This document shows, one piece after another, positions 369-3,085 of a stretch of DNA of 47,036 bases (positions are counted from its first letter, which is position 1; every line of letters begins with the position of its first letter). Origin of the DNA: Planctomycetota bacterium. GTDB taxonomy: Bacteria > Planctomycetota > UBA11346. Location: the NCBI GenBank assembly GCA_007695355.1, contig REDX01000254.1:1-47036 (forward strand), given 5' to 3'. Under the pieces are notes generated by a model. The model ran no database searches. It was not told where the DNA came from and saw nothing but the letters and a program-made list of their open reading frames with translations. The position numbers and the translations under genes are program-made.

Positions 369-500
369 TTTTCGTGTCTTGCGGTCATCCCACCAGCCGC
401 CGGCATCGTCCTTGGATTGCTTGGGCGGTGCTTCGTGGGTTCTATCGAGTAACCATTTAAGCTTTTCAGCCCTGGCCTCACGCTTTTGGCGGGATCTCAT
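345..500 (-). CDS. Small highly charged element protein, 51 aa
   Basis: Too short for the ORF track in this frame. It starts at ATG 500, inside the ATGA that also ends the upstream 98-aa gene, and stops at TAG 347-345. The translation begins MRSRQKREARAEKLKWLL and continues with lysine, arginine, aspartate and two adjacent tryptophans (GGWWDD). The stop-start overlap and the tight chain of neighbours support real translation by coupling. The composition resembles small phage or integrative-element accessory proteins, but I recognise no family. The stop codon lies within the hairpin at 341-368. Confidence 0.6.
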   Translation of the reverse strand: MRSRQKREARAEKLKWLLDRTHEAPPKQSKDDAGGWWDDRKTRKSPSRDSD

Positions 501-793
501 GCCGCCCCCTTGGCCCATGCGAGAACATCGGCACGGCGTACGAGGTAATTGTGGTGGCCGCCCCTGCCCTTGTCGCGGACCACTGCCGGCAATTCACCAT
601 CGCGCAATGCCTTGGTAAGCCGTTCATTGCTAACCTTGGCTAGGGCTCGTGCCTGCGACTTGGAAAGCAAGTCCTCGTCTGCGGTGGCCTGGGTGCGTTG
701 CTCGTTTATGAACTTATTGAGAGCATCACAGACGGCACCTTGAACAAGCTCTTGCAGCTGGGTGCTGGTTAAGGTGACTACTTGCACGTTCAT
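497..793 (-). CDS. Excisionase/MerR-type helix-turn-helix protein, 98 aa
   Basis: The N-terminal half is helical (VVTLTSTQLQELVQGAV...). The C-terminal half, about residues 42-98, reads as a winged HTH_17-type domain: LLSKSQARALAKVSNERLTKAL, then a basic wing with RDKGRGGHHNYLVRRADVLAW. This pattern (select-helix, xxDGELPAVxR, wing, RxxDVLAW) is typical of excisionase-like DNA-binding proteins of phages and integrative elements. Its start overlaps the stop of the 53-aa gene upstream (ATGA), and its stop overlaps the start of the 51-aa gene downstream (ATGA). A role as recombination directionality factor or repressor is inferred from family and context. Which targets it binds cannot be seen. 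Confidence 0.7.
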   Translation of the reverse strand: MNVQVVTLTSTQLQELVQGAVCDALNKFINEQRTQATADEDLLSKSQARALAKVSNERLTKALRDGELPAVVRDKGRGGHHNYLVRRADVLAWAKGAA

Positions 794-951
794 GGCTGGG
801 CACCTTCGGCCCTAGCGCGCACAGCGTCAGCACAGACGAGCCAAGGCGCGCCGGGATGCGGCCGCCATGCCGGCAGCTTACCGCGCAAGATCAACTGATT
901 CATGCGCTGGCGTGAGATTTGAAGGTAGAGAGCGGCCTGGGTGGCGCTCAT
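790..951 (-). CDS. Minimal HTH (excisionase-like) protein, 53 aa
   Basis: Missing from the ORF track. It starts at ATG 951 and stops at TGA 792-790, overlapping the next start in ATGA. The protein is essentially one helix-turn-helix: SATQAALYLQISRQRMNQL, then LRGKLPAWRPHPGAPWLV and ADAVRARA. This is the compact HTH_17 layout of Xis/AlpA-like regulators. No Shine-Dalgarno precedes ATG 951. Instead a nine-C tract and the stop of a seven-codon upstream frame abut it (TAATG), so initiation may depend on coupling, or the gene may really begin at ATG 974 if the C tract has ten bases. Likely an element-borne excision or transcription regulator. Confidence 0.65.
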   Translation of the reverse strand: MSATQAALYLQISRQRMNQLILRGKLPAWRPHPGAPWLVCADAVRARAEGAQP

Positions 952-974
952 TAGGGGGGGGGTGTTAGTTCCAT
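951..974 (-). other. Putative leaderless upstream ORF over a C9 tract (MELTPPP)
   Basis: ATG 974 lies exactly where transcription should start from the promoter at 981-1008 (seventh base after the -10). The frame is ATG GAA CTA ACA followed by three CCC codons and TAA, and the TAA overlaps the ATG of the 53-aa HTH gene. One extra C in the homopolymer would put this ATG in frame with the HTH gene. This is a sequence-level inference; no expression evidence is available. Confidence 0.4.
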
Positions 975-980
975 GCCCGT

Positions 981-1008
981 AGTATATCAGCTACTAGGGG
1001 CCTGTCAA
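981..1008 (-). promoter_or_regulatory. Strong sigma-70-type promoter for the element operon
   Basis: On the minus strand TTGACA (1008-1003) is followed by a 16-bp spacer and TATACT (986-981). The -35 matches consensus fully and the -10 at five of six positions. The predicted start is near 974, the first base of an ATG. It drives the small-gene chain at 951 to 1. A 12-bp palindrome just upstream is a possible operator. Confidence 0.75.
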
Positions 1009-1191: not shown

Positions 1192-2568
1192 CTAGCCGGT
1201 AGCGGTCTGCCCTTGTGCTGGTGGGGTGCTGGTCAGATACAGGAGGGGGGCCTCAGCGTCGAATTGTGGCCAGCCCTCGGCCCTAACGTCATCCGTATAA
1301 ATCCAGCTGTCAGCGGCATAGGTGCGAAATGTCCGGTTGTCGGACCAGCCGCCCATGGCCATTACCGCCGGCTCATACCCTCGCAATGCCGTTGCAAGAC
1401 TGGCAAATGAATGGCGCAGGGCATGCAGCGGCCAGTAAACAGGGTCAACGCCATGGCGCTTGACGAAGGCGCGGAACTTTACGCTGCGGTCGCTCTTATT
1501 GAGCCCTCGTATAGACGGAGAAAACACGCTATCACCATCCTGGCGAGGGTTTGCCAGGAGCGCGGCCACAAGGTCGGGGCACAGCTTTATATAGCGTTCG
1601 CGCTGGGTCTTGTTCCCTGGGTGGTTTAGAGCTAACTGGACGGTCCGTTTACCGAGGTCTATGTGTCTCCAACGTAAATGTTGCACTTCCTCGGCTCGCA
1701 TGCCGGTACATAGGCCGATTAGGGCAAACAGTCGCCACTCATCGCGCCCCTTACAACCCATCTTCAGCCGGTGGCTTACCGTGGATTCAGCGACACCTAG
1801 TGCCTGCGCGGCAAGTTTCTGGTTGCCTCCGTGGGCATCGACAGCGGCCAGGGTGCGGCGGTAAGCGCCGTCATCCATCCATGCGGCATCATCTCCAACC
1901 ATGCGACGAATCTCAGGCAGGGTATATGCGCGCCTTTGGGCGGTGCTGTGCCCGTCATCACTGGCGACCTTGTGCCCCTTATTGCGCCGCTTCTTCCAGC
2001 GCGCCAGGGGGTCAAAGCTAATCCACTGTAGGTCCAAGGCCAATTCAGCCAGGGCGCGGAACAGTACACGCATAGCGTGCTTGGTCTTAGGGCTGGCCGG
2101 TTTGCCATCGGGGCGGGTATGGTTGGCAATGGCATTGCCCAGCTTAACGCTAAATGCAGGGTCGCTCATATCCTCGACGCCGTGTTTCTTGGCGAACGCG
2201 GCCAGCCTGTTGAGCTGCTCGCGGTAGACGGGATTAATGGGGACGCCCTCTTGGCTGGTTGCTCGCTCATCCAGATAGGCGGCCAGGGCATTGGGGACCG
2301 TGGGCGCTTGCAGTTCCCAAGGTATCGACGCCTCGTGCTCCTGCTTAGCAATGAAGGCGCGGCAAGCCTCATCAGCGGCGGCCTTGGATGCGTGGCAACC
2401 TGCCGAATGCGTCCTCCTGCCGTCTGGCCCCTTCTCAATGACTTGGGCGCGGTATCGGCTCCGTTCGGGGCAGCATTGGGTGGCTGGCAGGGTGCGAGCT
2501 CGCCCGGTGGTTTTGCTCTTTTGAACATCGCGCCAGCGGTCGCTCACGGTGCAGGTGTATGCGGTCAT
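1192..2568 (-). CDS. Tyrosine recombinase / integrase with internal HTH
   Basis: A site-specific recombinase of 458 aa that would integrate and excise the element at the adjacent tRNA. The catalytic domain shows the phage integrase residues: R291 in CTGMRAEEVQHLRW, a lysine near 320, H382-x-x-R385 in LHALRHSFASLA, W408 in GGWSDN where many relatives have histidine, and the nucleophile Y417 in FRTYAAD. Residues about 90-190 are the SAM-like core-binding domain. Unusually, residues about 238-270 (GGNQKLAAQALGVAESTVSH) form a Fis-like helix-turn-helix just before the first catalytic arginine. The start is supported by AGGGGG seven bases upstream of ATG 2568 and by the promoter at 2592-2618. Confidence 0.92.
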   Translation of the reverse strand: MTAYTCTVSDRWRDVQKSKTTGRARTLPATQCCPERSRYRAQVIEKGPDGRRTHSAGCHASKAAADEACRAFIAKQEHEASIPWELQAPTVPNALAAYLDERATSQEGVPINPVYREQLNRLAAFAKKHGVEDMSDPAFSVKLGNAIANHTRPDGKPASPKTKHAMRVLFRALAELALDLQWISFDPLARWKKRRNKGHKVASDDGHSTAQRRAYTLPEIRRMVGDDAAWMDDGAYRRTLAAVDAHGGNQKLAAQALGVAESTVSHRLKMGCKGRDEWRLFALIGLCTGMRAEEVQHLRWRHIDLGKRTVQLALNHPGNKTQRERYIKLCPDLVAALLANPRQDGDSVFSPSIRGLNKSDRSVKFRAFVKRHGVDPVYWPLHALRHSFASLATALRGYEPAVMAMGGWSDNRTFRTYAADSWIYTDDVRAEGWPQFDAEAPLLYLTSTPPAQGQTATG

Positions 2569-2640: not shown

Positions 2641-2710
2641 GTTCTTAGCCATTCTTAAGGGGTTCTAGCAATTGTAAGTCCTTGATATAACGTACTCTAA
2701 CATTCCACGC

Positions 2711-2760
2711 AACAGATTTTGGTTCTGTTAGTATAGGTTCGAATCCTATTGGGGTAACCA
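2711..2760 (+). pseudogene. 3' half of tRNA-Gln(UUG), probable attachment site
   Basis: The anticodon arm AACAGA-TTTTGGT-TCTGTT carries anticodon TTG. It is followed by a short variable loop, a T-arm ATAGG-TTCGAAT-CCTAT, the acceptor 3' strand TGGGGTA, the discriminator A and encoded CCA. Upstream there is no D-arm and no acceptor 5' strand complementary to TGGGGTA, so only the 3' half is present. A displaced tRNA 3' end beside a tyrosine integrase gene is the hallmark of tRNA-targeted integration. The restored tRNA should lie at the far end of the element, left of the window. Confidence 0.75.
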
Positions 2761-2881: not shown

Positions 2882-2939
2882 GGTTACGCCGGCGCAAGCC
2901 CTCTTTTACCGTGAGGGGGGGCTTGCTTGCTCTGGCTCA

Positions 2940-3085
2940 GGTTCTCATCCTATTGGGGTCACAGGCCAAAACCCTGGGTCAGCCCAAAGCCGCTGACGGG
3001 GGTTTTGTCATGTTTAGCCCGGGAGGATACGATGCTTGTGTCCTCGCTTGCTCCTCGGCGCTGCGCGCCTTGCGGGGCTGCGCCC
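2940..3085. repeat. Direct repeat copy B, decayed tRNA-end duplicate
   Basis: This stretch repeats copy A at an offset of 204 bp. GGTTCTCATCCTATTGGGGTCACA corresponds to the tRNA end GGTTCGAATCCTATTGGGGTAACCA, then comes the hairpin, now imperfect on its left arm (CCCTGGGTCAGC), then the same GC-rich flank. No anticodon arm precedes it. It is best read as a fossil tandem duplication or the trace of an earlier integration at the same tRNA. Beyond it, 3094-3113 is a 9-bp perfect hairpin (GGTGGGACT/AGTCCCACC). I see no gene anywhere in 2761-3200. Confidence 0.75.

Follow-up and report, generated by a model that had tools for sequence, protein, structure and literature searches.

A probable hidden leaderless start was found in an ordinary int-HTH module at the end of a 47,036 nt contig. 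This contig (C249), referred to below as the window, belongs to a 3.46-Mb draft genome of 308 contigs that is 86% complete. In the reading preferred here, which as a whole is given a probability of about 0.5, the promoter and ATG974 are assigned to HTH1, the first gene of an operon beside the integrase of an integrative element, and a leaderless mRNA beginning at AUG974 would encode HTH1. The run of nine Cs in the assembly (C9) would then be a one-base slip in the C-rich stretch encoding the N-terminus, either a slipped allele in the population or an error in calling the tract. Some HTH1 could still arise in the C9 form from Met951 by UAAUG reinitiation, since ribosomes terminating at the UAA overlap AUG951, and nearly the whole domain would be kept.

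The int end of an integrative element

The first 2.7 kb of the window is the int-end module of the element, which is truncated by the contig end. On the minus strand, the order from a tRNA 3′ half is integrase, HTH1 and HTH2 (Table 1). The tRNA half includes an AACAGA/TCTGTT stem around TTTTGGT, a T arm and TGGGGTAACCA, was read by eye as a putative tRNA-Gln(UUG), and is the likely attachment site of the element. ARAGORN predicted no whole tRNA at this position and a complete copy was not found in the assembly, as a missing second end of the element would predict. A 147-nt direct repeat (2735-2881 and 2939-3085, 86% identical, 204 nt apart) spans the 3′ end of the tRNA and the terminator behind it, and represents a degraded duplicate of the attachment site, perhaps left by an older integration. 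Just inside the tRNA fragment, near-copies of GTGCAACAGTT arranged in tandem (2605-2643) look like arm-type sites of the integrase.

Table 1. Features of the int-end module, with positions in the window.
Feature	Position	Strand	Details
Tyrosine integrase of the element	1192..2568	-	458 aa; PF00589, E 2e-11; PHROG integrase, E 2e-27
HTH1, HTH_17 / excisionase-like	790..951	-	53 aa from ATG951; 61 aa from ATG974 if C10
HTH2, second HTH_17 protein	497..793	-	ATGA overlap with HTH1; SD-like AGGTG
tRNA 3′ half	2710..2760	+	Anticodon stem-loop with TTG, T arm, CCA; from sequence
Sigma70-type promoter, TTGACA-16-TATACT, extended -10	981..1008	-	Predicted +1 at 974
Leader reading frame, MELTPPP-stop in C9 form	951..974	-	Leaderless start if +1 is 974
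C9 homopolymer (G9 on + strand)	954..962	-	From sequence
TAATG stop/start overlap	949..953	-	From sequence

HTH1 is predicted to be an excisionase-like small DNA-binding protein. The match to HTH_17 (PF12728) scores 32.5 bits (E 1.1e-7), above the gathering cut-off of 27 bits, and the best PHROG match is to an excisionase family (E 0.0018). The label excisionase-like, given in the first-pass annotation, is upheld by the HTH_17 score but not by TIGR01764 (excise), where 26.1 bits is under the curated cut-off of 28.8. The HTH1 query for the domain search, and for the comparison with locus L055 described below, began MELTPPLM..., the C7 equivalent. HTH1 is like the excise/HTH_17 proteins (PF12728, TIGR01764) located beside tyrosine integrases in domain, size and int-adjacent position, and is likewise in an operon with a second HTH gene; it differs from them in its sub-threshold TIGR01764 score and in an assembled start codon that lies within the domain. 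A structure model (from codon 963, single-sequence input) was uninformative, consisting of one long helix with no HTH and no PDB match.

Promoter, tract and start position of HTH1

The sequence features described in the first-pass annotation, namely the C9 tract, a promoter with ATG974 at its +1, the MELTPPP-stop frame, TAATG and ATG951, were all confirmed. The promoter comprises TTGACA (1008-1003), a 16-nt spacer and TATACT (986-981), with TGA before the latter hexamer; no other 11/12 match occurs in 47 kb, and Markov simulations gave 0.03 such matches on average. ACGGGC lies between TATACT and the ATG at 974-972, and numbering the final base of this hexamer -7 makes A974 the predicted +1. 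An ATG exactly on the predicted +1 is the above-chance part of the observation, the frequency of ATG being 1.4-1.6% per position. Initiation at ATG974 is probably leaderless. RNA folding of the predicted mRNA left the first 24 nt unpaired, with weak structure downstream (z -1.8).

In the C9 form, the ATG974 frame ends at a TAA (953-951) that shares one base with ATG951 (951-949). The reading frames also agree with the earlier statement that ten Cs join the ATG974 frame to the HTH protein: one inserted C (C10), or a tract of seven (C7) or thirteen (C13), is needed to fuse the frames into MELTPPPLMSATQAALYL..., and one extra C or two fewer gives MELTPPPLMSATQ..., with a start at -7 relative to the HTH_17 domain. 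Leaderless regulators of mobile elements are known, including lambda cI and PaaR2 of an Escherichia coli O157:H7 cryptic prophage (PMC8630535), in which, as predicted at HTH1, the +1 of the promoter is on the AUG of the regulator. HTH1 differs from these in that the leaderless frame of the C9 form stops after seven codons, and in that its +1 is a predicted one.

ATG951 is the sole start codon in the HTH1 frame after the upstream stop, and corresponds to position +1 of the Pfam domain. HTH1 was compared with 61 other HTH_17 genes in 21 genomes, 60 of them from 20 genomes of the same family and one, L055, from another family. Of the 61, 60 have an in-frame start two or more codons ahead of Pfam position 1 (mode -5), a tally of candidate rather than mapped starts in which upstream candidates are overcounted, and the remaining gene has no in-frame start at all. 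Only in HTH1 does the sole start fall within the domain, and ATG974 with C10, at -7, would be within the usual range. In a profile search, the HTH_17 match begins one codon before ATG951 (G000:C249:805-954, profile 1-48). L055, a distant syntenic relative (int then HTH, 37% identity), includes ...LPPLLTRKQAA, which aligns to TPP-LMSATQAA of HTH1, and a paralogue encoded in the window's own genome includes LPP-VMTVGQ, whose internal Met matches the position of the Met in HTH1. The MELTPPP stretch itself is too short for a coding test.

Taken together, the start-position statistics, the -7 position with C10 and the similar residues in L055 and the paralogue suggest that the true start of HTH1, or its ancestral one, is probably ATG974 in a single leaderless gene, the C9 tract having slipped or been mis-called. 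ATG951 has no Shine-Dalgarno (SD) sequence; this is weak evidence, as a strict SD is present in only 12 of the 23 main ORFs in the window. HTH_17 proteins that start at the second position of the domain do exist.

Other explanations for the C9 tract

A serious rival, though on balance rather unlikely, is that ATG951 is the true start and ATG974 opens a 7-codon leader. HTH1 would then be made either by UAAUG termination-reinitiation or by direct use of ATG951, 23 nt into the mRNA, and the only effect of the PPP stretch may be to slow the terminating ribosome. The leader stop overlaps the downstream start in TAATG, a common coupling overlap, and gene pairs with this -1 nt overlap and termination-reinitiation are described (PMC10666635). 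HTH1 has the same junction as those pairs, but its upstream ORF is just 7 codons with no known relatives. The following junction, HTH1-HTH2, is an ATGA overlap, the ATG951 product loses almost nothing of the HTH_17 domain (profile 2-48), and many genes of the window have no SD. Against this arrangement, none of the 61 other HTH_17 genes has its only start within the domain, there is no SD for reinitiation at ATG951, and neither a leader peptide nor a tract precedes the HTH genes of L005 and L055, the two best syntenic relatives, both of which are distant. The PPP leader peptide proposed in the first-pass annotation retains its TAATG overlap but has no counterpart at these two loci.

A simple assembly or sequencing miscount of C10, leaving the gene intact, is unlikely, though it fits both the anomalous start position and the draft state of the assembly. 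Other C9 and C10 tracts sit in open long ORFs (the UDPGP ORF in L097 and MLCLSRIPPPVHAPS... in L107) and do not point to frequent miscounting, and poly-G contig ends (L118, L119) hint at two-colour Illumina sequencing, in which consensus miscounts of 9-mers would be rare. No obvious frameshifts were seen at the other C9/C10 runs of the assembly, a weak test because few of these runs lie within conserved domains. Among the options of the first-pass annotation, that of a hidden true start is favoured by the start-position statistics.

That the tract is a selected, reversible switch, with full-length HTH1 and the excision programme on at C10 or C7 and down at C8 or C9, is very unlikely. The frame logic works, and nine Cs, in or just before the gene, fall in the variable range of tracts, those of 8 or more being mostly variable in Neisseria meningitidis (PMC5084427). 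The C9 tract is longer than any other homopolymer of the window, but a first-order Markov model predicts about 1.4 G/C runs of at least 9 there, so the tract is not in itself improbable. The 3.46-Mb genome contains 22 exact C9 runs, below the approximately 70 expected when the window estimate is scaled, and is thus not tract-rich, a property that would support phase variation but is not obligatory. One of the checks proposed in the first-pass annotation, comparison with related elements, showed that the HTH genes of L005, L055, L007 and L008, all distant relatives, lack C/G runs of 7 or longer at their starts. Reinitiation may still yield HTH1 in the C9 state. HTH1 shares tract length, post-start position and frame logic with the poly-C/G contingency loci of Neisseria and Campylobacter (PMC5084427), but its tract is not conserved and its genome has no excess of tracts. 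Beyond tract length, nothing positive was found for the phase switch proposed earlier.

No second copy of the locus was detected when the integrase and HTH1 were searched in genome, viral and plasmid collections, HTH1 was not found in phages, and HTH2 and the exact promoter/leader DNA had no match in viral contigs. The best relative of the integrase in related genomes is 30% identical over the full length, and such relatives are too distant for tract comparison.

Odds slightly below those of the phase switch are given to a leaderless excisionase gene controlled by its C tract, in which replication slippage in the nine Cs after a 5′-terminal AUG would stochastically flip the exit programme of the element, the product being either the full-length protein or a leader peptide accompanied by weak reinitiation. 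Natural variation of the tract would mean that DNA slippage in single cells sets excision of the element, a simple heritable on/off switch of mobility; the only PubMed Central match for an excisionase with a phase-variable homopolymeric tract concerned lytic phages, and its entry gives no sign of such a switch. If there is no switch, the locus usefully illustrates how a hidden leaderless start would escape gene callers. Its interest is low to moderate unless reads mix C9 and C10.

Production of full-length HTH1 from C9 itself, a fixed fraction being fused through addition of a C by RNA polymerase or through a -1 ribosomal shift on CCC CCC ahead of the stop, is highly improbable: a -1 shift at the last CCC would give exactly the C10 product, but most slippage elements described are A/T runs (PMC1088944, a survey of A and T runs) and no strong stimulator structure was seen downstream (z -1.8).

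Homopolymers were also observed elsewhere in the genome, several G/C runs of 9-10 being located at gene starts. In L105, C10 (701-710) forms the spacer between AGGAG and the ATG of a TIM-barrel gene, in L104, G9 (701-709) is immediately before mutS, and in L107, C9 (701-709) lies within the N-terminus of a signal-peptide-like protein. The contigs of L118 (1207-1229) and L119 (981-1016) end in 23-36 Gs, probably an artefact of two-colour chemistry. In L114, C20 (701-720) directly follows the AAA+ lid domain in an ORF for a sigma-54 activator, and is either a better slippage candidate than the HTH1 tract or an artefact.
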